This document shows positions 21,372 through 48,806 of a DNA stretch of 64,000 nucleotides, piece by piece; position 1 is the stretch's first letter; each line of letters starts with the position of its first letter. The notes under the pieces are model-generated. The model was not told where the DNA came from, did not search any database, and saw only the letters and a program-made list of their open reading frames with translations. The translations under genes were made by a program, and so were the position numbers. Origin of the DNA: Amycolatopsis sp. EV170708-02-1 (GTDB lineage: Bacteria; Actinomycetota; Actinomycetes; Mycobacteriales; Pseudonocardiaceae); NCBI RefSeq assembly GCF_022479115.1, contig NZ_CP092497.1:1736001-1800000 (forward strand), read 5' to 3'.

Positions 21372-22542
21372 GGACGTTCCTTGAGTTCGACGGGCAGCCG
21401 CACGGACAGCTCGGTGCCGTGGCCGGGGAGGACTCGACGGCGAGGGTCCCGTCCAGGGCTTCGGCGCGGGTGCGCATCGCGGTCAGACCGAAACCGGTGT
21501 GTTCCGGGTCGAAGCCGACACCGTCGTCGACGACGTCGAGGGTGACGTGCCCGTCGAGGTAGCACAAGGTGACGTCGGCGGTGGACGCGCCGGCGTGGCG
21601 GACGGTGTTCGCCAGGGCGGCCTGGCCGATGCGCAGCAGGGCGACCTCGTATGCGGTCGGCAGGGGAGCGGGAGTACCGGTGAACCGGAAACGCGCGACG
21701 ATCCGGTGCCGGGCGGTGGTGGTGGCGCACAGCCGTTCCAGCGCGTCGGTGAGGGTGGTGTCGTCGAGCGCCGGCGGGGACAGCGCGACGACGAAGCGGC
21801 GAGCTTCGGCCAGGTTGTCGGCGGCCGCTTGCCGAGCCTGCTCGACGTAGCGGGCTGCGTTCCCCGCGGTGTCGGGCAGGGTTCTTTCCGCGGCACGCAA
21901 CAGAAGTTGAATACTCGACAGCCCTTGGGCGAGGGTGTCGTGGATCTCGTGGGCCAGCCGTTCACGCTCGGCGAGCACCCCTGCCGCATGCTGGGCTTCG
22001 GCGAGGTCGGCGCGGGTGGCGGTGAGCTCCTCGATCAGGTTCCGGCGGCGTTCGCTTTCGCGGTACAGCGCCTGGTATCCCCAGACGACGGCGACCGCGA
22101 CGGCGGCGCCCAGCGCCGGGCCGATCGCCGCCGCCGGGACGAAGGAGCCCTGGTGGGCGGCGAACGCGGTGATCGCCGCCAGCGCGGTCGCGATCACCGC
22201 GAGCAGGCCTTGGCGGCGCGGCAGCAGATGCAACTGCAGGAAGTACAGCGGGAAGGCGACCCAGACGCCGTCCGCGGTCAGCACCAACAGGACCAGCCAC
22301 ACGAGGCCCACCGCGATCAGCCACCACAGTGCGGCCCGCCGAGACGTCCTGACACGCGGCAGGAGCGGGCCTGCCGCGTACACGACAGCGCACGTCAGCG
22401 CCGCCGCGACGACCGCTCCCGCGCCGGGCGAGCCGTCCGCCACCGCACGGACGGCCGCGAGTGCGAGCAGGGCGACGAGCAGCAGGTGCAGACACCAGGT
22501 CAGCACCCGGCTGGTCGGGGTCAAAGGGGGCGAGGTGGTCAC
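21265..22542 (-). CDS. Sensor histidine kinase with apparent C-terminal frameshift
   Basis: As written the frame gives 425 aa. Six hydrophobic segments fill residues 15-160. The HisKA_3 helix is ERERLAHEIHDTLAQGLSSIQ with phospho-acceptor His201. The ATPase part has NTVRHAGAST and DDGVGFDPEHTGFGLTAM. After ESSP (about 21430) the frame turns into a Pro/Arg-rich tail that runs 107 bp into the response-regulator gene. The -1 frame instead continues GHGTELSVRLPVELKERP, the normal family ending, and stops at 21368 in a GTGA overlap. One C missing from the run at 21425-21428 would explain this, as a sequencing error or a real mutation. Most of the ATP-binding domain is intact. Confidence 0.75.
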   Translation of the reverse strand: MTTSPPLTPTSRVLTWCLHLLLVALLALAAVRAVADGSPGAGAVVAAALTCAVVYAAGPLLPRVRTSRRAALWWLIAVGLVWLVLLVLTADGVWVAFPLYFLQLHLLPRRQGLLAVIATALAAITAFAAHQGSFVPAAAIGPALGAAVAVAVVWGYQALYRESERRRNLIEELTATRADLAEAQHAAGVLAERERLAHEIHDTLAQGLSSIQLLLRAAERTLPDTAGNAARYVEQARQAAADNLAEARRFVVALSPPALDDTTLTDALERLCATTTARHRIVARFRFTGTPAPLPTAYEVALLRIGQAALANTVRHAGASTADVTLCYLDGHVTLDVVDDGVGFDPEHTGFGLTAMRTRAEALDGTLAVESSPATAPSCPCGCPSNSRNVRDRTPDPAPSRRRSPDRPGGPACLAGNRTRTRRLR

Positions 22543-22713
22543 AGTGCGTCCAGATTACGGAGCGGGACCGGCGGGCGCCTCTATCCAAAGGTAGAAGCGG
22601 CGCGCCGTCTTCCGGCGGGCGAAATGCCATCTCCGGCCAGATGCCGTCGCGGTCGGCGGCGGCGATCGTGGAGAGGTAACCAGCCCACCCGCCGGAGAGG
22701 ACAGACCGGAACC

Positions 22714-23796
22714 GTGTTCGTCGCCTGGAGAGATCTGAGATTCGCCAAAGGGCGGTTCGCCCTGATGGGGGCCGTGGTCGTGTTGATCACCCTGCTGGTC
22801 GGCCTGTTGTCCGGGCTCACCGCGGGGCTGGGTGAGCAGAACATCTCCGGGATCACCGGCCTGCCCGCCGACAAGATCGTCTTCACCGCTCCTGGTGACG
22901 GGCAGAGCCTGTCCTATGCCAACTCGGCGATCACCGAGACGCAGCGGCGGCAATGGGCCGAAGCGCAGGGCGTCACCGGTGCCGAGCCGCTGGGCATCGC
23001 CACCACCAAGGCCGGTGCGGGGAGCCGCAGCGCCGGGATCACCGTCTTCGGCGTCCGGCCCGGATCGGCACTCGCCCCGGACGGCGGGAACTTCACCGGT
23101 GACTCGGTGGTGTTGTCGACGTCCGCCGCCGAAGAGCTGGGCGTCCGGAGCGGAGACACCGTCACCGTGGCGGGGCGCCCACTGAGGGTCGCCGCCGTGA
23201 CGGGGGATGCCTGGTTCAGCCACACCCCCGTGGTGTGGGCCGGTCTCGACGTCTGGGCGAAGACCGCGCCACCCACGGGAGGCGTGCCGAGCGCGACGGT
23301 GCTCGCACTGACCACCACGGCCGGCGCCGATCTCGCGGCCACTGATCTCGCCGCGGGCACGAAGACGGTTTCGAAGAGCGACTCGCTGTCCGCGATCGGC
23401 TCCTACACCTCGGAAAACGGTTCGCTGCAACTGATGCGAGGCTTCCTGTTCGCCATCTCCGCACTCGTGATCGGCGCCTTCTTCACCGTCTGGACGATCC
23501 AGCGCAGCGGCGACATCGCCGTCCTCAAGGCGTTGGGGGCGAGCACACCCTTCCTGCTGAAGGACGCGCTCGGCCAGGCTGTCGTCCTGCTGGTCGGCGG
23601 CACCGCCGTCGGCACCGGGCTGGCCGTCGGCCTCGGCGCGGTCGTCGCCGGATCCGCGGTGCCCTTCCTGCTGACGCCGGCCACCGTGCTGGTCCCGGCC
23701 GCGGTGATCATCCTGCTCGGCGCACTCGGGGCAGCGCTTTCCGTCCGCCGCATCACTTCCGTCGACCCGTTGACCGCATTGGGGAGTGCCCGATGA
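22714..23796 (+). CDS. FtsX-type ABC transporter permease
   Basis: 360 aa from a GTG at 22714. The layout is MacB/FtsX-like: one N-terminal membrane helix (FALMGAVVVLITLLVGLLSGLTAGL), a large external domain (about 45-225), then three C-terminal helices. The latter include LMRGFLFAISALVIGAFFTVWTIQRSGDIAVLKALGAST, the family signature, and a final SVRRITSVDPLTALGSAR. It is paired with the following ATPase by an ATGA overlap. It is divergent from a two-component system, which points to export of an antimicrobial or lipid in response to envelope stress. Confidence 0.88.
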   Translation: MFVAWRDLRFAKGRFALMGAVVVLITLLVGLLSGLTAGLGEQNISGITGLPADKIVFTAPGDGQSLSYANSAITETQRRQWAEAQGVTGAEPLGIATTKAGAGSRSAGITVFGVRPGSALAPDGGNFTGDSVVLSTSAAEELGVRSGDTVTVAGRPLRVAAVTGDAWFSHTPVVWAGLDVWAKTAPPTGGVPSATVLALTTTAGADLAATDLAAGTKTVSKSDSLSAIGSYTSENGSLQLMRGFLFAISALVIGAFFTVWTIQRSGDIAVLKALGASTPFLLKDALGQAVVLLVGGTAVGTGLAVGLGAVVAGSAVPFLLTPATVLVPAAVIILLGALGAALSVRRITSVDPLTALGSAR

Positions 23797-24488
23797 GCCT
23801 GAACCTGACCGGTGTCACCCTCACCTATCCTGACGGCGACTCCCGCCTCACAGCGCTCGACGACGTCACACTGGACGTCCCGCCGGGCACGATCACCGCT
23901 GTCGCCGGGCCTTCCGGCTCGGGCAAGTCCAGCCTGCTCGCGGTCGCCGCCACGCTCATCACCCCGGACCACGGGACCGTCACCATCGACGGCACCGAGA
24001 CCACCGGGCTGACCCGCGGCGAACTCACCGGACTGCGCCGCCGCAAGATCGGGATCGTCTTCCAGCAACCCAATCTGCTGCCCTCCCTCACCGCCGCCGA
24101 ACAACTCCAGGTCATGGCCCGGATCGACGGCCGCTCCGCGACCGAGGCACGTGGCGTTGCCATGGACCTGCTCGACGCCGTCGGGCTCGGGCCGCAGGCC
24201 GGCCGTCGCCCGCACCAGCTTTCCGGCGGCCAGCGGCAACGGGTGAACATCGCTCGCGCACTCATGAACGAGCCGACCGTGCTGCTGATCGACGAGCCGA
24301 CGAGCGCCCTCGATCACGACCGCGGCGCCGCGGTCATCGACCTGATCACCCGCCTGACCCACCAGCGGGCCACCGCCACCGTGCTGGTCACGCATGACCG
24401 CGCCCATCTCGCCGAGGTCGACCGGATCGTCGAAGTCCACGATGGACGGTTGGGCACCCCGGAACCGGCCCGTCTTCGGTCCGGTTAG
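23793..24488 (+). CDS. ABC transporter ATP-binding protein (MacB/LolD type)
   Basis: 231 aa. Walker A GPSGSGKSSLL, Q-loop FQQPNLLPSLTAAEQL, signature LSGGQRQRVNIARAL, Walker B VLLIDEPTSALD and His-loop LVTHDRAHL are all intact. The type pairs with four-helix FtsX-like permeases and performs mechanotransmission rather than classical transport. It overlaps the permease by 4 bp and is followed after 6 bp by a strong hairpin, so the operon has two genes. Confidence 0.92.
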   Translation: MSLNLTGVTLTYPDGDSRLTALDDVTLDVPPGTITAVAGPSGSGKSSLLAVAATLITPDHGTVTIDGTETTGLTRGELTGLRRRKIGIVFQQPNLLPSLTAAEQLQVMARIDGRSATEARGVAMDLLDAVGLGPQAGRRPHQLSGGQRQRVNIARALMNEPTVLLIDEPTSALDHDRGAAVIDLITRLTHQRATATVLVTHDRAHLAEVDRIVEVHDGRLGTPEPARLRSG

Positions 24489-24494
24489 CGAACC

Positions 24495-24554
24495 GATGTA
24501 CATGTAGGCCCCTGCCTTGCGCCTATCGCAAGGCAGGGGGCCTACATGTACATC
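24495..24554. terminator. Long hairpin terminator with GTAC-rich ends
   Basis: Arms 24495-24521 and 24527-24554 pair over about 27 bp with one bulge and a 5-nt loop. Both ends read GATGTACATGTAGGCC on their strands. It follows the ABC operon directly and separates it from the next cluster. The outer sequence resembles the hairpin at 44895. Confidence 0.75.
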
Positions 24555-24703
24555 GGGCTTTTCGGGCAGGTAAAAGGATCTCGTAACTTCCGGCGAGCGG
24601 GTAAATTCGTTCCGTTTTGTCATGCCGTCGTTCTCGCGAATTTCGAAATCGCTGCGAATGCGTCATTCTTCTGACCTAATTCCATCGAACTCGGCTGTTT
24701 GCC

Positions 24704-24737
24704 GCCATAACCTTGCGCACTGTCGTCGGGTTATGGC
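24704..24737. promoter_or_regulatory. Inverted repeat upstream of the polycation cluster
   Basis: GCCATAACC (24704-24712) and GGTTATGGC (24729-24737) are perfect 9-bp arms 16 nt apart, 46 bp before the first small ORF. The surrounding 24590-24700 is clearly more AT-rich than the genes and probably holds the promoter. The repeat could be an operator or an RNA hairpin. Confidence 0.45.
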
Positions 24738-24782
24738 CTGCGAGAAACGGCTGCACGATCTTTCGTACTTACGGAGGTACCC

Positions 24783-24905
24783 GTGGAAAGCCGCCAGCAC
24801 TACTTTCCAAGCCTGTCATCTCCGCCAGGACACCTTGTCCGGCAGGCACTTCCGAACTCTGTCGTATACCCCGTCGCGAATGCGGCCACTGTGGCGACCT
24901 GTTAA
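24783..24905 (+). CDS. 40-aa small ORF heading the aspartate kinase operon
   Basis: A GTG start with CGGAGG at 6-nt spacing, the strongest ribosome site in this area. Forty codons end in TAA at 24903-24905, and the aspartate kinase GTG follows 8 nt later. The peptide begins MESRQHYFPSLSSPPGHL and ends ANAATVATC. It shows no run of Lys, Thr, Met or Asp codons, so a classical attenuator is not obvious. It may be a leader peptide that couples translation into the kinase, or a genuine small product with a C-terminal Cys. I recognise no family. Confidence 0.4.
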   Translation: MESRQHYFPSLSSPPGHLVRQALPNSVVYPVANAATVATC

Positions 24906-24913
24906 GGAAAAAG

Positions 24914-26179
24914 GTGAATTCTTCCCCGAAACTCGACCTCAGCCCGGATCCGCCCTTGCCGAAGACGCGAAGCGAAGGACTGGTCATACGAAAATACGGT
25001 GGCTCGTCGCTGGCCACACCGGAAATGGTGAACGAGGTGGCCGCGGATGTGGCCGCGATCGCCGAAACCGGAGATCGGGTGGTCCTGGTCGTGTCGGCCA
25101 TGGGGGACAGCACCGACCGGCTGATCGCCTTGGCCGGGGAGTTCGCCGAACCGCCCGCTCCCCGGGAGCTCGACCAGTTGATGGCGACCGGTGAACAGGT
25201 GTCCGCGTCGGTGCTCGCCATGGCGCTGGCCGAGCGCGGAGTCGAGGCCGTCTCGTTGTCCGGTGACCAGGCGGGGATCGAGGTCGCCGGCGAACCGGGC
25301 GCGGGAACCATCGTGCGGGTCGATCCCGGCAGGATCCTCGCCCGGCTGCGTGACGCGCGGGTCATCGTGGTCGCCGGGTTCCAGGGGCGGGACGCCGACG
25401 GCGAACTGCTGACCTTGGGCCGAGGCGGCTCCGACACCACCGCGGTGGCGCTCGCGGCCGCGCTCGGCGGTTCCGAATGCGAGATCCGGACCGACGTGCA
25501 CGGAGTTCGCACGGCCGATCCCCGGATAGTGCGGGACACCCGGGTGGTCCGCACGATCTCGTACGACGCCATGGTCGAGCTCGCCGGGCTCGACGCCCGG
25601 GTCCTGCACCCCAGATCCGTCGAGCTCGCGCGCCGTCACGGGGTGGCGGTGCGGGTGACGCACGCGTCGGACCCCGGCCCGTCGACCGTTGTGACAGCGG
25701 GAGAACCGTCGCTGGAAGGCACTCCCAGCGTCATCGGCATCGCGCACGAACGCGACGTGCGGCTGGTCCGGGTCGAGGTTTCGGCCACCGGCCCGGACCA
25801 TTACGCGCACGTCCTCACGACACTGGCGGGTTGTGGGGTGCGGCCGGACAACCTGAGCTGGCCCGATCCCGGCGAGCTGCGGTTCACCGTGCGAGGGACG
25901 GAGCCGCTCGGCCTGCCGATCACCCGGCTCGCGATGGAGCTGGAGGCACGTTCGACGGTCTGCGACGACTTCGGCTCGGTTTCCGTGATCGGCACCGCGC
26001 TGCTCGATTCGCCCGGGTTCGTTCCCGAGATGCTGCGGGTCCTCGCCGATCACCGGGTCACGGTGCCCGCGATGACGACCTCGCAGTCGCGCCTCACCGC
26101 CGTGATCCCCGCCGACGGCGTGGACACGACCGTCCGCGCCCTGCACGACGCGTACGGCTTGGCGGTGGACAGGACATGA
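24914..26179 (+). CDS. Aspartate kinase, biosynthetic-cluster copy
   Basis: 421 aa from the GTG at 24914 behind AAGGA. It phosphorylates L-aspartate, the first step to aspartate semialdehyde. The kinase signature is IRKYGGSSLATPEMVNEVA, a variant of the usual KFGGTS. LVVSAMGDSTDRL, LGRGGSDTTAVALAAAL and ARVLHPRSVELAR follow. Two ACT-like regions fill residues ~270-415. The substituted signature and its place before a Pls-type synthetase and a Dab aminotransferase indicate a dedicated copy, possibly with altered feedback control by Lys or Thr. That last point is inference. It overlaps the synthetase start by 4 bp. Confidence 0.9.
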   Translation: MNSSPKLDLSPDPPLPKTRSEGLVIRKYGGSSLATPEMVNEVAADVAAIAETGDRVVLVVSAMGDSTDRLIALAGEFAEPPAPRELDQLMATGEQVSASVLAMALAERGVEAVSLSGDQAGIEVAGEPGAGTIVRVDPGRILARLRDARVIVVAGFQGRDADGELLTLGRGGSDTTAVALAAALGGSECEIRTDVHGVRTADPRIVRDTRVVRTISYDAMVELAGLDARVLHPRSVELARRHGVAVRVTHASDPGPSTVVTAGEPSLEGTPSVIGIAHERDVRLVRVEVSATGPDHYAHVLTTLAGCGVRPDNLSWPDPGELRFTVRGTEPLGLPITRLAMELEARSTVCDDFGSVSVIGTALLDSPGFVPEMLRVLADHRVTVPAMTTSQSRLTAVIPADGVDTTVRALHDAYGLAVDRT

Positions 26180-29100
26180 GCCCCTACGGACTGCCGTCCG
26201 GCCAATTCACCGACGATGGCCTGGTCCTCACCTGCGACGGCCACGACCAGCGGGTCCGGTGGCGGGCCGGCGATCGGCTGGAAGAGTTGTACGAGCGGCT
26301 CTGCGACAGGCTGCGAGCCGACGGCCACGGCGATCGCCTCGCGGTGGACGCCGAGGGCGAGAAGCTCACGTTCGACGGCTTGGACCAGCAGGCCAACCGG
26401 CTCGCCCGGCACCTCCGAGCACGCGGGGTGCGGCCCGGCGACCGGATCGGGTTGCTGTTCGGCGAACCGGTGCACCCCTATGTCGCGATGCTCGCGGTGC
26501 TCAAGGTCAATGCGGCGTATGTGCCACTGGACGCGGGGTTTCCGGACGACCGCCTGGCCTACATCGTCCAGGACGCCGGCGTCCGGCTCGTGGTGTCGAC
26601 CGCCGCCCTGCGGGACCGGTTCGAGCCGGGCAGCGTCGAACTCGTCTGTCTCGACGAGGACTCGGATCGCATCGCCGGGCAGCCGGGCGAGCGGCTCACC
26701 GCGACCGAGAAAGGCACTCCGGCCGGCGAACTCTGTTACGTCGTCTACACGTCGGGCTCGACCGGGCGGCCGAAGGGCGTGACGATCGACCACGCCTCGA
26801 TCTGCAATTTCGTCCAGGTCGCCGCCGAGGTCTACGGCATCCACGCCACCGATCGGGTCTACCAGGGCATGACGATCGCGTTCGATTTCTCGGTCGAGGA
26901 GATCTGGGTGCCGTTGCTGAGCGGCGCGACGCTCGTGCCGAAACCCGGCGGCGCCGCCCTCGTCGGCCACGACCTCCTCGAATTCCTGCGGGAGAACAAG
27001 GTCACCGCGCTGTGCTGTGTCCCGACCCTGCTGGCCAGCCTCGACGAGGACCTGCCGCTGCTCAGGTTCCTCCTGGTGTCCGGTGAAGCGTGTCCCGAAG
27101 ACCTCGTGCGCCGCTGGTATCGCCCGGACAGACGGTTCCTCAACGTCTACGGCCCGACAGAGGCCACCGTCACCGCGACGTGGTCGGTGCTGCGGCCGGA
27201 TCGGCCGGTGACCATCGGGGTGCCCCTGCCCACCTATTCGGTCGTCATCCTCGACCCGGACGAGCCGAGGGCCTTGGCCGCGGGCGAACTCGGCGAGATC
27301 GGCATCGCCGGGATCGGGCTCGCCGGCGGCTACCTCAACCGGCCCGATCTGACCGGTCGCGCGTTCATCCCGGATTTCCTCGGCATCGGGCACAATCCGT
27401 CCCGGCGCATCTACCGCACCGGTGACCTGGGCCGGATCACCCCGGACGGGGAGATCGAGTACCACGGCCGTGCCGATACCCAGGTGAAGATCCGGGGCTA
27501 CCGCGTCGAGCTCACCGAGATCGAATCGGTCCTCCTGCAGATCCCCGGAATCGCCCAGGCGGTGGTCGAAACCCACCGACCGGGGCCGGGCACCATCGAG
27601 CTGGTCGCCTACTACAGCCTGCGCCGCGACCAGGCGGACGTCGATCCCGGAGAACTCCGTCGTCGTCTGGCGGAACTGCTGCCGGGCTACATGGTGCCCG
27701 CCTATCTCGAAAAGCTCGATCACATCCCGCTGACCCCGGCGGGCAAGGCCGATCGCAAACATCTCCCGGCGCCCACCGGTCCACGGAGAGCGGGAAACGA
27801 CGTCGGCTACGTGGCGCCGGCCACCGAGACCGAAATCCAACTGGCGGACGCCTTGGGCGGCGTCCTCGGGATCGAGCGGATCTCGGCGACGGGGCATTTC
27901 TTCGACGACTACGGGGCCGACTCCTTGCTGCTGGCCAAGTTCTGCGCCGTGATCCGGGAGCGCGGAGACCTCGCGCCGATATCGGCCAAAGACGTGTACC
28001 TCAACCCGACCGTTCGCGGTCTCGCCGAGTCGGCCACCGCCGCGGCCCACGTCACGGCCGCTCGCGCCGAAGAGCCGCACCGGGCGTCGACCGTGTCGTA
28101 TGTCCTTTGTGGCGTTTTCCAGCTCTTGGCCTTCCTGACCTATGCGGCTGGTTCGGGCTGGATCCTGGACACGGGATTCGCCTGGATCTCCGCCGCGACG
28201 GGGTTCGCCGAGGGCTACGCACGCGCAGCAGGGCTGGGGCTCGTCGTCTTCGTCATCCTGTCGGTGGTGCCGATCCTGGCGAAGTGGGCGATCGTCGGCC
28301 GGTGGAAGCCGGGGGAGATCCCGCTGTGGAGCGTCGGCTACCTGCGCTTCTGGACGGTCAGGACGTTGATCAGGTTCAGTCCGCTGATGCTGTTCATCGG
28401 TACGCCGCTGTACTCGTGGTACCTGCGGGCGCTCGGCGCGGACATCGGCAAGGGCGCCGTGATCCTCTCGCGGAACCCGCCGGTCTGCACCGATCTGTTC
28501 CGGGCCGGCGCCGGGGCGGTCATCCGGAAGGACGCGTACTTCTCGTGCTACCGCGCGAGGGCGGGGCGAATCCAGACCGGTCGGGTCACGCTGGGGGACA
28601 ACGCCTTCGTCGGCGAAATGACCGTGCTCGACATCGGCACGGCACTCGGCCACGACGCGCAGCTCGGCCACTCGTCGTCGTTGAACGCCGGACAGTCCGT
28701 CCCCGATGGCGAGAGCTGGCACGGATCACCCGCTCGTCCATCCACTGTGGACTACCGAGCGCTGGGAACGGTCCCGCGCGGCAGGCTCAGGCCGATCGTC
28801 TTCTGCGCGTCCAGCCTCCTGCTCCTGCTTTCCGTGACGCTGCCCGTGACGTTGGGCGGAGCGGACGTCTTCGTCGACCGCTGGCTCACCACGACGACGG
28901 ACTTCACGAGCTGGGCCTTCTATCGAGGCCGGATCATCGACTCGGCGCTGCTGTACTTCGGGACGTTGCTCGCCGGGCTCGCGGTCGTCCTCACGATCCC
29001 GCGCCTGCTCGGCCGGTTCCTCCGGCCGGACCGCGTCTATCCGCTCTACGGCAGGCATTTCGCCGTCCAGCGGTTGATCGCGCGGCTTACCAACATGCGT

Positions 29101-30240
29101 GCGTACACGTATCTGTTCGGGGACAGCAGCTATATCGTGTACTACCTCCGCGCGCTGGGGTACGACCTGTCGAAGGTGCGGCAGACCGGATCCAACTTCG
29201 GGGTCGAGGTCAAGCACGAGACGCCGTTCCTCAGCACGGTCGGCACCGGGACGATGGTCTCGGACGGCCTCTCGATGCTCAACGCCGACTTCTCCGCGTC
29301 CTCGTTCCGCCTGCGCGAGACGTCCATCGCGCCGGAGGCGTTCCTGGGCAACGAGATCGCCTTTCCGCCGGACGCCAGGGTCGGCCGGAACTGCCTGCTG
29401 GCCACCAAGGTCCTCGTTCCGCTGGACGGGCCGGTCAAGGAGAACGTCGGCCTGCTGGGGTCGCCCGCGTTCGAGATCCCCCGGAGCGTCCGCCGCGACA
29501 CCGGATTCGAGCACCTCGGCACCGGAGACGCGCTGCGCCGGGGGCTGCGGGCGAAGAACCGCCACAACACCGCCACCATCGCCGTCTACCTGCTCGTGCA
29601 CTGGCTGCACCTGCTGGGAATCCTGCTGATCGGCACGGCGGCCGGTGCCCTGCACGAGCGGGTCGGTCCGCTCGCGGTCGGCGGCGGCATCGTGGCGACG
29701 CTGATGTTCTCGGTCGTGTTCCTCATGCTCGCGGAACTCGCCGTACAGGGATTTCGGGCGCTACGGCCGAGGTTCTGCTCGATCTACGATCCGATCTTCT
29801 GGCGGCACGAGCGGTTCTGGAAGCTGAGTCCCGCGCGCTATCTCGCGCTGTTCGACGGGACGGCGTTCAAACCCTTCCTGCTGCGTCGTCTCGGTGTCCG
29901 GATCGGGCGCCGCGTCTTCGACGATGGCTGCGCGATCCCGGAACGGTCGTTGGTGCACATCGGCGACGACTGTGTGCTCAACCTGCACACCGTCGTGCAA
30001 GGACATTCGCTCGAGGACGGCACGTTCAAATCCGACTACATCGACATCGGTGCGGGGTGCACCCTCAGCACCGGCTCCTTCGTCCACTATGGAGTGACGA
30101 TGGCGGACGGGGCGATCGCCGAAGCGGACGCCTTCCTGATGAAGGGCACCACGGCCCCCGCTCGGACCCGCTGGCACGCCAATCCGGCTGTCGAACTCGA
30201 CACGGCGGAAGAGATCACCGCGGCAAGGAGGCTGCCATGA
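26176..30240 (+). CDS. Pls/PosA-type membrane nonribosomal peptide synthetase (polycation synthetase)
   Basis: 1354 aa. The adenylation domain (~30-520) has YTSGSTGRPKGVTID, NVYGPTEATV, GELGEIGIAG and YRTGDLGR. A carrier domain follows, with the phosphopantetheine Ser583 in DDYGADSLL. After that come six membrane helices in three pairs (near 640 and 690, 870 and 920, 1135 and 1170), each followed by a hexapeptide-repeat-like soluble domain. There is no condensation or thioesterase domain. This is the architecture of epsilon-poly-lysine synthetase, which links one amino acid into a homopolymer. In the A4 region FDFSVEEIW, Glu241 sits where Phe-activating GrsA has Trp239, which fits a basic substrate. 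The neighbours supply diaminobutyrate. Confidence 0.9.
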   Translation: MSPYGLPSGQFTDDGLVLTCDGHDQRVRWRAGDRLEELYERLCDRLRADGHGDRLAVDAEGEKLTFDGLDQQANRLARHLRARGVRPGDRIGLLFGEPVHPYVAMLAVLKVNAAYVPLDAGFPDDRLAYIVQDAGVRLVVSTAALRDRFEPGSVELVCLDEDSDRIAGQPGERLTATEKGTPAGELCYVVYTSGSTGRPKGVTIDHASICNFVQVAAEVYGIHATDRVYQGMTIAFDFSVEEIWVPLLSGATLVPKPGGAALVGHDLLEFLRENKVTALCCVPTLLASLDEDLPLLRFLLVSGEACPEDLVRRWYRPDRRFLNVYGPTEATVTATWSVLRPDRPVTIGVPLPTYSVVILDPDEPRALAAGELGEIGIAGIGLAGGYLNRPDLTGRAFIPDFLGIGHNPSRRIYRTGDLGRITPDGEIEYHGRADTQVKIRGYRVELTEIESVLLQIPGIAQAVVETHRPGPGTIELVAYYSLRRDQADVDPGELRRRLAELLPGYMVPAYLEKLDHIPLTPAGKADRKHLPAPTGPRRAGNDVGYVAPATETEIQLADALGGVLGIERISATGHFFDDYGADSLLLAKFCAVIRERGDLAPISAKDVYLNPTVRGLAESATAAAHVTAARAEEPHRASTVSYVLCGVFQLLAFLTYAAGSGWILDTGFAWISAATGFAEGYARAAGLGLVVFVILSVVPILAKWAIVGRWKPGEIPLWSVGYLRFWTVRTLIRFSPLMLFIGTPLYSWYLRALGADIGKGAVILSRNPPVCTDLFRAGAGAVIRKDAYFSCYRARAGRIQTGRVTLGDNAFVGEMTVLDIGTALGHDAQLGHSSSLNAGQSVPDGESWHGSPARPSTVDYRALGTVPRGRLRPIVFCASSLLLLLSVTLPVTLGGADVFVDRWLTTTTDFTSWAFYRGRIIDSALLYFGTLLAGLAVVLTIPRLLGRFLRPDRVYPLYGRHFAVQRLIARLTNMRAYTYLFGDSSYIVYYLRALGYDLSKVRQTGSNFGVEVKHETPFLSTVGTGTMVSDGLSMLNADFSASSFRLRETSIAPEAFLGNEIAFPPDARVGRNCLLATKVLVPLDGPVKENVGLLGSPAFEIPRSVRRDTGFEHLGTGDALRRGLRAKNRHNTATIAVYLLVHWLHLLGILLIGTAAGALHERVGPLAVGGGIVATLMFSVVFLMLAELAVQGFRALRPRFCSIYDPIFWRHERFWKLSPARYLALFDGTAFKPFLLRRLGVRIGRRVFDDGCAIPERSLVHIGDDCVLNLHTVVQGHSLEDGTFKSDYIDIGAGCTLSTGSFVHYGVTMADGAIAEADAFLMKGTTAPARTRWHANPAVELDTAEEITAARRLP
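28741..28751. repeat. TCCACTGTGGA palindrome
   Basis: Second copy, inside the synthetase gene between the first external domain and the third membrane helix. Confidence 0.7.
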
Positions 30241-31601
30241 CCCACACCCCGACGGCTCGAACGGCGCCTCGTGTTGAGGGCGCGCTGCCCGGCCCTCGCT
30301 CGGCCGAGTTCCTCGAACACCAGCGACAGTGGGAATCCAGCGCGCGGGCGTACCCACGGCATCTGCCGATCGCGATCGCGGGCGGCGCGGGCAGCTACCT
30401 GCGCGACATGGACGGGAACGTCTTCCTCGACTTCCTGGCGGGCGCGGGTGTGCTCTCCCTCGGCCACAACCATCCCGAACTGGTGCACGCGGCCACCGAA
30501 CAGATGCACGTGCTCACCCACGGCCTGGACTTCCCGACCCCGGCGAAACGCGAGTTCGTCGACGCCCAGCTGTCCATGCTGCCGCCGGACCTGCGCTCGC
30601 GGATGCGGGTGCACTTCTGCGGCCCCGGCGGCGCCAACGCCGTGGACGCCGCGATCAAACTGTGCAAGACCGCGACCGGGCGCGGTGACCTGGTGTCCTT
30701 CCAGGGCGGGTTCCACGGCTCGAGCCACGCCGCGATGGCGTTGACTGGGCTCGTCGCCCAGAAACGCCCGATCGCCAACGGCGTGCCCGGCGTGCACTTC
30801 TTCCCGTACTCCTACTGCGCTCGGTGCCCCGTGGGGCTTTCACCGGACACCTGCGCGACCAACTGCGTCGGCCTGTTGGAACGGTCGCTGCGGGATCCGA
30901 ACGGCGGCATTCCGCTTCCCGCCGCGGTGATCCTGGAAATGGTGCAGGGTGAAGGCGGGATCATCCCGGCGGACCGCGACTTCGTGCGACGCGTCCGTGC
31001 ACTGACCGCGGAGCTGGACATCCCGCTCGTCGTCGACGAGGTGCAGACCGGTTGCGGCCGCACCGGGACGTGGTTCGCGTTCGAGCACTACGACATCGAG
31101 CCCGACGTGATCGTCGCCTCGAAGGCCTTGAGCGGGATGGGACTCCCGGTGGCGGTGATCTTCTACGACCGGCGGCTGGACGGCTGGGCACCAGGGGCGC
31201 ACACCGGCACGTTCCGAGGCAACCAGGCCGCGTTCGCCGCCGGTGCGGCGGCGGTCCGCATCGTCCGGCGTGACGACGTGCTGGGCAACGTCCGGCAACG
31301 CGGGCGGCAGCTCGCGGAACGGCTCGGCACCCTGCACGACGACGTCTGGGTCCGCGAGGTGCGCGGCCTCGGCCTGATGTGGGGGATCGAACTGGCCGAT
31401 CCGCGCGATGGCCGCCCGGCGGGCGGATACGCCCGCGCCGTGCAGGCACACGCGTTGCAGCACGGTCTGATCGTCGAACTCGGCGGCCGCGACGACAGCG
31501 TGATCCGTCTGATGCCGCCGCTGACCGTGACCACGGAGGAGATCGAGCTCGCCTGCGCGATCCTGCTGGACGCGATCGAGCGCTGTGGTCCGCCGCGGTA
31601 A
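30237..31601 (+). CDS. Diaminobutyrate--2-oxoglutarate aminotransferase-like protein
   Basis: 454 aa, class III PLP aminotransferase, start overlapping the synthetase stop behind AAGGAGG. Family features are [65 protein letters not shown] and the PLP lysine in ASKALSG. A Cys-rich insert, [18 protein letters not shown], is typical of diaminobutyrate aminotransferases near EctB/RhbA. It converts aspartate semialdehyde plus glutamate to L-2,4-diaminobutyrate. The ectoine genes ectA and ectC are absent, so the product should go to the adjacent polymer synthetase. Confidence 0.88.
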
Positions 31602-47879: not shown

Positions 47880-48806
47880 CTACTTCGTCCGGTCGAAGCA
47901 GATTCGAGCGAGAAGACCGGCGATCGCCCAGTCCTGTATGGCCACCCCGACGGACTTGAAGACCGTACGGCCTCGTCGCTTCGTGACTCCCTCGGCCAGC
48001 GCGGTCCCCAGTTCGGTGAGGTCGTCCTCCGTGATCGTCCCCGCCGCGAGGGCGTGGATGATCTCCCCAGACTCCTCGAGGATCGCTTCCCGTTCGTCGA
48101 TGACCACGGTCGCGGCCGCGAGCAGCTCGTCCGGCAGTTCTCGCATGGTGGGACGGAAGGCGCCGACGGCGTTGACGTGAGCGTGTCCAGCCAGCGATTC
48201 GAGTGAGAACAGGGGCTTGGTGGACGTCGTCGCGCAGCAGACGATGTCCACGTCCCGGACGGCCTCGTCGGCATCGGTGAGAACGACGGCGGTGAGGTCC
48301 AGCTCCGCGCCGAGCGACTTGCCGAGCGCTTCGGCACGTTCGAGCCCGCGACTGACGATCCTGAGTTCGGTCAACGGCCGGACGGCGTGCACGGCCCGGA
48401 CCTGGTCGGCCGCCTGCGCGCCCGCACCGATGAGGGTGCATGTCTTCGCTTCCGGCGGAGCCAGCAGATCGGTCGCGATACCGGTGACGGCGCCGGTGCG
48501 GATGCGGGTCACCTCGGTGGCGTCGGCGACGAGCTGGCGGCTGTGGCCGAGTTCGCTCCAGACGACGGTGCCGGCGATGGCCGGGACACGGTCGAAATCG
48601 AGGCTCAAGGTCTTGATCATCGCCGACGCGGTCGGCCGGTGGTGCGTCGACATCACGAGGAATCCGCCGTCGCGCAACACGGTTCGCGTCGGCATTTCGA
48701 ACTCGCCGCGGTGCAGGGCGAGAAAACCGTTCCGTACCGTGGCGATCGCGGCGGACATGGACACGGCGGACCGGATCTCGTCCGGGCCGAGGGTCACGAC
48801 GTCCAC
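47880..48806 (-). CDS. Ornithine cyclodeaminase/mu-crystallin family protein
   Basis: 308 aa. The NAD(P)-binding site is CTLIGAGAQAADQVRAVHAV. Family landmarks include MIKTLSLDF (Lys of the active site), RTGAVTGIATDLLA, ATTSTKPLF and HVNAVGAFRPTMRELP. Members include ornithine cyclodeaminase and pyrroline-2-carboxylate (or similar imine) reductases. It lies 12 bp after a proline racemase/hydroxyproline epimerase homologue under a GntR regulator, so reduction of a cyclic imine in hydroxyproline or proline breakdown is more likely than ornithine cyclisation. Confidence 0.85.
   Translation of the reverse strand: MDVVTLGPDEIRSAVSMSAAIATVRNGFLALHRGEFEMPTRTVLRDGGFLVMSTHHRPTASAMIKTLSLDFDRVPAIAGTVVWSELGHSRQLVADATEVTRIRTGAVTGIATDLLAPPEAKTCTLIGAGAQAADQVRAVHAVRPLTELRIVSRGLERAEALGKSLGAELDLTAVVLTDADEAVRDVDIVCCATTSTKPLFSLESLAGHAHVNAVGAFRPTMRELPDELLAAATVVIDEREAILEESGEIIHALAAGTITEDDLTELGTALAEGVTKRRGRTVFKSVGVAIQDWAIAGLLARICFDRTK

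Follow-up and report, generated by a model that had tools for sequence, protein, structure and literature searches.

Gene organization of the locus

The locus described here lies in a 64,000-nucleotide stretch (hereafter the window; C1:1736001-1800000) of the genome of Amycolatopsis sp. EV170708-02-1, a single contig of 9,660,387 bases (9.66 Mb). As listed in Table 1, genes for an aspartate kinase, a synthetase of the Pls/PosA type and a 2,4-diaminobutyrate (Dab) transaminase follow one another in this order on the plus strand, and all three reading frames are intact. This trio is very probably a biosynthetic operon for gamma-poly-L-Dab, a polymer akin to epsilon-poly-lysine, which is used to preserve food. 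The tetranucleotide ATGA at 26176-26179 is common to the stop codon of the kinase gene and the start codon of the synthetase gene, and another at 30237-30240 joins the synthetase and aminotransferase genes in the same way. The first of these overlaps is also present in all five other Amycolatopsis loci compared. Thus, the three ATGA-coupled genes that had been described from the letters alone (the sequence-only reading) are borne out by the coordinates of the open reading frames (ORFs) and by the family models.

The same reading had let the kinase begin at 24783. This start does not hold, since position 24783 is the GTG of an out-of-frame ORF of 40 codons. The most likely start, judging from the alignment, is the GTG at 24914, which is preceded by AAGGAAA. 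The region of this codon is conserved in the five other Amycolatopsis loci aligned (5/5), which use an ATG one codon earlier, where the window reads AAG.

Table 1. Features of the trio and of its upstream region (window coordinates)
Feature	Position	Strand	Basis
Pathway aspartate kinase, 421 aa, GTG start (most likely)	24914..26179	+	TIGR00657; AA_kinase and ACT domains; start from ribosome-binding site and conservation
Pls/PosA-type synthetase, 1354 aa	26176..30240	+	TIGR02353, AMP-binding, PP-binding
Adenylation domain, residues 47-524	26314..27747	+	Pfam; code residues; PosA offset of 20
Carrier (T) domain, residues 556-618, phosphopantetheine Ser583	27841..28029	+	PF00550; GADSL motif
Membrane polymerisation domain, residues 645-1338, six predicted transmembrane helices and three beta-helix-type soluble domains	28108..30189	+	TIGR02353; hydropathy; AlphaFold2
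Diaminobutyrate--2-oxoglutarate transaminase (dat), 454 aa	30237..31601	+	TIGR00709; best PDB match 6rl5, of this name
Near-perfect palindromic hairpin, probable terminator/boundary outside the pathway	24500..24549	.	-42.7 kcal/mol, z -7.88
40-codon ORF, GTG at 24783	24783..24905	+	start codon kept in 1/5 other Amycolatopsis loci

Domain organization and specificity code of the synthetase

NCBIfam and Pfam models were read against their curated cut-offs, while narrower equivalog models were judged from the matches shown. The synthetase scores 680.2 bits with TIGR02353 (cut-off 423.1) and 399.4 bits with TIGR01733 (cut-off 317.4). Its Pfam matches are AMP-binding (residues 47-387), AMP-binding_C and PP-binding, and no condensation or thioesterase domain is among them. 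It is thus a single-module adenylation-carrier (A-T) synthetase with a Pls/PosA terminal domain, as is characteristic of gamma-poly-L-Dab clusters. Hydropathy analysis revealed six hydrophobic segments in three pairs, which leave three soluble domains, another characteristic of these clusters, and the same arrangement of paired helices is seen in an AlphaFold2 model of residues 630-1354 (predicted local distance difference test 88.8; predicted template modelling score 0.89). The best solved-structure matches of this model are hexapeptide acetyltransferases; this comparison serves as a check of architecture only. The A-T-membrane-triple-soluble-domain architecture proposed earlier is therefore confirmed by Pfam, TIGR02353 and hydropathy. 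Since a three beta-helix model has already been reported for PosA, I claim no novelty for that of the membrane domain.

The specificity code of the A domain is DFECLSVVTK (D237, F238, E241, C280, L300, S302, V324, V332, T333 and K524). Eight residues of PosA named in PMC10522769 (217, 218, 221, 260, 280, 304, 312 and 313) map onto the window synthetase at a constant offset of 20. According to that paper, the second code position is Phe in poly-2,3-diaminopropionate (poly-Dap) and poly-Dab synthetases, Met in PosA and Ala in Pls. Because Phe238 occupies it here, lysine or ornithine is an unlikely substrate as far as the code can predict. The combination of Phe with the conserved Asp and Glu (D237, F238 and E241), found in gamma-poly-L-Dab clusters, is common to poly-Dap synthetases. 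Glu241 had been taken as a sign of a basic side chain; the residue is present and fits, and 'basic' is all that it says. The comparison of specificity residues that had been suggested along with it thus speaks against lysine and ornithine and leaves Dab and Dap unseparated, so that the assignment to Dab rests mainly on the neighbouring genes.

Aspartate kinase, transaminase and precursor supply

Two further marks of gamma-poly-L-Dab clusters, a dat transaminase (TIGR00709) and a pathway aspartate kinase (TIGR00657), are present in the trio. The kinase, scored on a 488-residue open frame, reaches 281.7 bits (cut-off 208.7), and its best solved match is the aspartokinase 5yei. It was compared with the housekeeping LysC of the same genome: the two are identical at 116 of 241 catalytic positions and at 34 of 154 ACT positions. 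The LysC stretch QNVSS...DITFT, which I take from work on C. glutamicum to be part of the lysine/threonine effector site, is replaced and shortened in the pathway kinase. Judged from its sequence, the pathway kinase keeps the catalytic core and has an eroded ACT region; because of this erosion, it is predicted to be freed from feedback control by lysine and threonine.

The aminotransferase scores 414.6 bits with TIGR00709 (cut-off 401.6). The absence of a semialdehyde dehydrogenase from the trio, stated earlier, was confirmed, since the only asd_B match in the genome (C1:9598087-9599103, at 9.598 Mb) adjoins the separate housekeeping lysC. Likewise, the trio has no hydrolase and no exporter; of its surroundings, annotation covered part of the flanks (eight window ORFs). 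The cluster had been called minimal on these grounds. The trio indeed lacks the three functions, but the set is not unusually minimal, as the published pdd cluster consists of these three genes and a racemase gene.

Distribution of the trio in Amycolatopsis and its family

Among the matches listed, the nearest synthetase homologues belong to Amycolatopsis: one record, which bears the name A. japonica, and another, from A. keratiniphila DSM 44409, each show 94% identity. The synthetase was found at E <= 1e-300 in 20 of the 60 genus genomes sampled, or in 19 of 59 without the source genome. It is 83-94% identical in 16 of these 19 relatives, and its code is identical in 18, the other (L125) having Ala at position 4. 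The kinase gene stands beside the synthetase gene in all 19, a linkage beyond chance. The transaminase gene is found in 17; that of L136 is broken into two frames.

In a family sample of 200 genomes, 26 have a synthetase match. Eighteen of the 19 non-genus places listed were fetched, and 13 of these 18 loci have a transaminase gene (12 dat-type, one of them fused; one EctB-type), eight of the 13 with a kinase gene as well. All eight family-sample genomes of the genus with a window-type synthetase, including the source genome, have two TIGR02353 matches (E <= 1e-120); the code was typed for the second synthetase of the source genome only. This second Pls-type synthetase (L011; G000:C1:5178447-5180501, minus strand) has the code DAESIGTVVK. 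Its A domain matches the chain of epsilon-poly-lysine synthase 7wew with 684.6 bits, and a peptidase M1 gene follows. It is a probable epsilon-poly-lysine locus by these marks.

Association of the code with Dab supply genes

I compared 82 loci, namely the best 80 among the matches listed, the window, and the second synthetase of the source genome. The set leans to close relatives. A flanking transaminase was counted at 300 bits or more, and some flanks end at contig ends. L154, whose code is misaligned, was left out of statements on the code. These loci are counted apart from the genus and family loci and are not summed with them, since several are the same (L119/L014, L128/L047, L130/L019, L131/L012, L133/L015, L139/L013, L140/L017, L146/L023, L148/L061 and L150/L063).

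The exact code DFECLSVVTK occurs in 55 of the 82 loci, including the window. A Dab transaminase gene lies in the examined flank of 45 of the 55 (30 dat-type and 15 EctB-type), in three cases on the opposite strand (L037, L053 and L060). An aspartate kinase gene lies in the flank of 30, and each of these 30 also has the transaminase gene. The other 27 loci have a transaminase gene in eight cases (one dat-type, seven EctB-type), a kinase gene in none, and neither in 19. When the count is limited to loci whose flanks reach 5 kb or more on each side, the transaminase is found in 37 of 45 exact-code loci against 4 of 18 others, and the kinase in 26 of 45 against 0 of 18. Ten of the neighbouring transaminases were scanned, and each passes a model for Dab transaminases. 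For five of them (L022, L032, L037, L059 and L075) this is the EctB model, and four of the five, L075 being the exception, adjoin a synthetase with the exact code. The other five pass TIGR00709 but not EctB.

On a quick tree, five context labels need 20 changes, whereas 200 shuffles needed 45.5 on average and more than 20 in every case. This indicates inheritance together with repeated change, and the locus counts are therefore not independent events; being a quick search, the tree gives a hint of repeated recruitment only. Alignment A2 contains, besides the window, 30 of the 89 loci with a long enough match, every second locus being listed; loci fetched from genomes and five others were left out, as were L056, which has a stop codon in frame, and, to be on the safe side, L020 and L078. 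Clustering of the neighbouring ORFs, taken from stop to stop, proved too noisy to be counted, and the 5p/3p labels of the genus and family loci, being unreliable, entered no result.

Several types of gene fusion were found. The synthetase frame runs on into an aminotransferase in Pseudonocardia N23 (L040) and P. dioxanivorans (L061), as checked with Pfam; the 'fused' labels of the locus comparison are spurious for long stop-to-stop frames, that of the window included. Precomputed domains give two more proteins in which the synthetase carries PF00202 (P0207 and P0232), and on one contig the synthetase is fused to an aspartate kinase (P0103). In a Blastococcus (L018), the synthetase frame continues into a domain of the phosphopantetheinyl transferase kind (PF01648, 49.7 against a cut-off of 25), so that this enzyme may activate its own carrier. 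The corresponding domain of L029 stays under the cut-off.

The order of the genes varies. In the Streptomyces loci L033 and L034 it is transaminase-kinase-synthetase, unlike the kinase-synthetase-transaminase order of the window. Two Pseudonocardia loci have tandem synthetases, both with the same code in L062, and one full and one partial frame in L051, which also has a dat-type transaminase and two SbnA-like ORFs. By its gene content, L051 hints at mixed Dab/Dap products.

Comparison with known systems

The published systems are compared here by their descriptions. The pddA-D genes of Streptoalloteichus hindustanus make gamma-poly-D-Dab with a synthetase, a DapF-like racemase, a Dab transaminase and a pathway aspartate kinase (PMC8225329). 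By description, PddA, PddC and PddD are all matched in the window trio, while the racemase PddB is not. Streptomyces celluloflavus co-produces gamma-poly-L-Dab and epsilon-poly-lysine, its gamma-poly-L-Dab synthetase PldA being WP_110952768 (PMC8117764). Figure 1C of that paper lists pldA, dat, ask and pddA among its gene contexts, and I read its legend as placing dat and ask on the flanks of pldA. These are the same three kinds of genes as in the trio, and the epsilon-poly-lysine co-product has its parallel in the second synthetase of that type in the present genome. On the other hand, the genus differs, and the likeness rests on gene descriptions, not on a published order or protein sequence. 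PldA (WP_110952768) is not among the named homologues in the matches listed.

Pls of Streptomyces albulus (A domain, PDB 7wew) shares the A-T-membrane triple-domain architecture, but it has Ala at code position 2 in place of Phe238. The pls gene is described with a peptidase gene (PMC8117764), which is not coupled to the window synthetase. Thus, the window differs from the pls-pldII type of locus in both code and partners, its coupled genes being those of the kinase and the transaminase. PosA, which makes delta-poly-L-ornithine in Acinetobacter baumannii (A domain, PDB 8g95-8g98), resembles the window synthetase in its architecture, in the Asp and Glu of the pocket and in the three beta-helix membrane model. 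It differs in Met at code position 2, where the window has Phe, and in its single-gene operon, where the window has three genes. A literature search turned up no Amycolatopsis cluster described for poly-Dab of the L type, a weak negative since most subscription papers were outside its reach. The trio is a sound but expected new example, as such gene sets have already been described in other actinobacteria.

Alternative products

Is the polymer made of Dap rather than Dab? A poly-L-Dap synthetase that stands beside Dab genes by chance is the least improbable of the alternatives, and quite unlikely itself. The A domain for poly-Dap of S. albulus also activates Dab weakly (PMC4668381), and an SbnA-like gene and an SbnB-like gene are located about 32 kb from the trio. 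However, Dap synthesis in S. albulus runs via homologues of cysteine synthase and ornithine cyclodeaminase, not via a kinase and a Dab transaminase (same source), and here the kinase and transaminase genes overlap the synthetase gene and are conserved with it. The PF02423 match closest to the trio (window 47883-48806) lies 16 kb from it, and none to PF00291 accompanies that match. In the examined flanks of the 82 and the 37 (genus and family) loci, a search at E 1e-8 found no ORF resembling SbnB, and SbnA-like ORFs were found near L051 and L154 only. In the set about 32 kb away, across the right edge of the window, SbnA-like (401 against a cut-off of 350), SbnB-like (195, under 327), ornithine-carbamoyltransferase-like and threonine-dehydratase-like genes lie side by side (L156:2493-6453, minus strand); by their kinds, they are perhaps for diaminopropionate or a ureido-amino acid.

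Lower credence is given to a short oligo-Dab or Dab-bearing conjugate, or to a role of the Dab genes in supplying some other peptide synthetase of the source genome, which is rich in nonribosomal peptide synthetases (117 PF00501 matches, not all of that kind). Chain length is not given by sequence, but the synthetase gene overlaps the supply genes and lacks the condensation and thioesterase domains, and relatives of the same family are reported to make homopolymers. Lower again stands a poly-D-Dab synthetase of the PddA type, for which the kinase, transaminase and synthetase would equally serve as pddD, pddC and pddA; a PddB/PddA homologue pair is reported in Amycolatopsis anabasis (PMC8225329). 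In the published cases of the same source, PddB is translationally coupled to pddA and is weakly similar to DapF, whereas no DapF-like racemase gene is coupled to the synthetase gene in the window. A profile search of the source genome with PF01678 found one DapF-family gene only, 0.6 Mb away, and no second. Phmmer searches with the DapF of this genome had no hit at E 1e-3 around the 37 loci of the genus and family, and around the 82 loci the best E value was 0.21. Because PddB is only weakly similar to DapF, these scans are weak, and the profile search is the stronger test. Since the genome has this one DapF-family gene, the L-polymer is favoured over the D-polymer. The least credence falls to a silent or decaying cluster without a product under most conditions; remnants or absence of the transaminase gene in two relatives and a split one in a third would fit it, but the three window frames are intact and the synthetase is well conserved in 16 of the 19 genus relatives that carry it.

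Several observations weigh against the assignment of the trio to gamma-poly-L-Dab. In the matches shown, neither the transaminase nor the kinase passes a narrower equivalog model. A second TIGR00709 match over the cut-off lies elsewhere in the genome (C1:2766564-2767814), and the clustered gene is therefore not the only possible source of Dab. From its SbnA-like and SbnB-like genes, the genome may also make Dap. The synthetases of S. celluloflavus and S. hindustanus were likened by description, not by sequence. The close genus relatives L121 and L122 keep the kinase and synthetase genes, while the transaminase gene is reduced to remnants in L121 and missing in L122. Neither supply gene was found at 5 of the 18 non-genus loci, including L152 and L153 with the exact code, or in the examined flank of 10 of the 55 exact-code loci. 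For this last reason, the code alone was rejected as proof of Dab. Family, domain order and code agree with the assignment to gamma-poly-L-Dab, as do the presence of a kinase and a transaminase dedicated to the pathway, their conserved linkage to the synthetase, the fusions and the description of a pdd cluster with the same three enzymes.

Upstream region

The end of an ABC ATPase gene lies 425 bases upstream of the trio. The hairpin between it and the kinase gene is more stable than chance would give, as none of 200 shuffles was as stable. The upstream ABC transporter and two-component genes were considered as exporter and regulator and rejected: of the 19 genus loci, five (L119-L123) have orthologues of them next to the cluster, and the hairpin separates them from the kinase gene, so that they are not counted in the system. 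While no exporter is found in the trio, a plus-strand frame beside the ATPase gene (21499-23796) was outside the family scans. The 40-codon ORF was also rejected as a leader peptide owing to its poorly conserved GTG, though short DNA stretches are conserved: in 24773-24808, GGAGGTACCCG and CACTACTTTCC are conserved in six Amycolatopsis upstream regions, the window included, while the start codon is not. No Rfam family was above its gathering score in 24300-25100, where three weak matches all stayed below.

Proposed pathway and implications

In the proposed pathway, the pathway kinase, predicted to be freed from lysine/threonine feedback by its eroded ACT region, would phosphorylate aspartate, and the housekeeping Asd would make aspartate semialdehyde. 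The transaminase would turn this into L-Dab with glutamate as the amino donor. The A domain would then adenylate L-Dab and load it on Ser583 of the carrier. Finally, the membrane domain, with three acyltransferase-like beta-helix domains in one chain, would in repeated cycles take the acyl group of Dab off the carrier and join it to a side-chain amine, either that of free Dab or that of the chain being built. The enzyme activities, the product, its chain length and its secretion are all inferred, and the gamma regiochemistry is assumed by analogy with known homologues.

Isopeptides such as poly-Dab and its relatives are reported to have antimicrobial or antiviral activity, and their use as cell-penetrating carriers is discussed. 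A single-contig genome with synthetases of both the poly-Dab and poly-lysine types and a seemingly naturally deregulated kinase offers a compact three-gene test system, and the pathway kinase is a candidate for an aspartate kinase insensitive to feedback. The transaminase genes nearby offer a means to sort synthetases whose A-domain code leaves Dab and Dap unseparated. The eroded kinase, the fusions, the two kinds of transaminase and the second synthetase of the epsilon-poly-lysine type add moderate interest to the locus. With the chances evenly balanced, this clade of Amycolatopsis may be producers of two polycations, gamma-poly-L-Dab with its own feedback-insensitive aspartate kinase and epsilon-poly-lysine on the housekeeping pathway, and the poly-Dab supply module may have been assembled more than once in bacteria, with dat or EctB, and in places fused.

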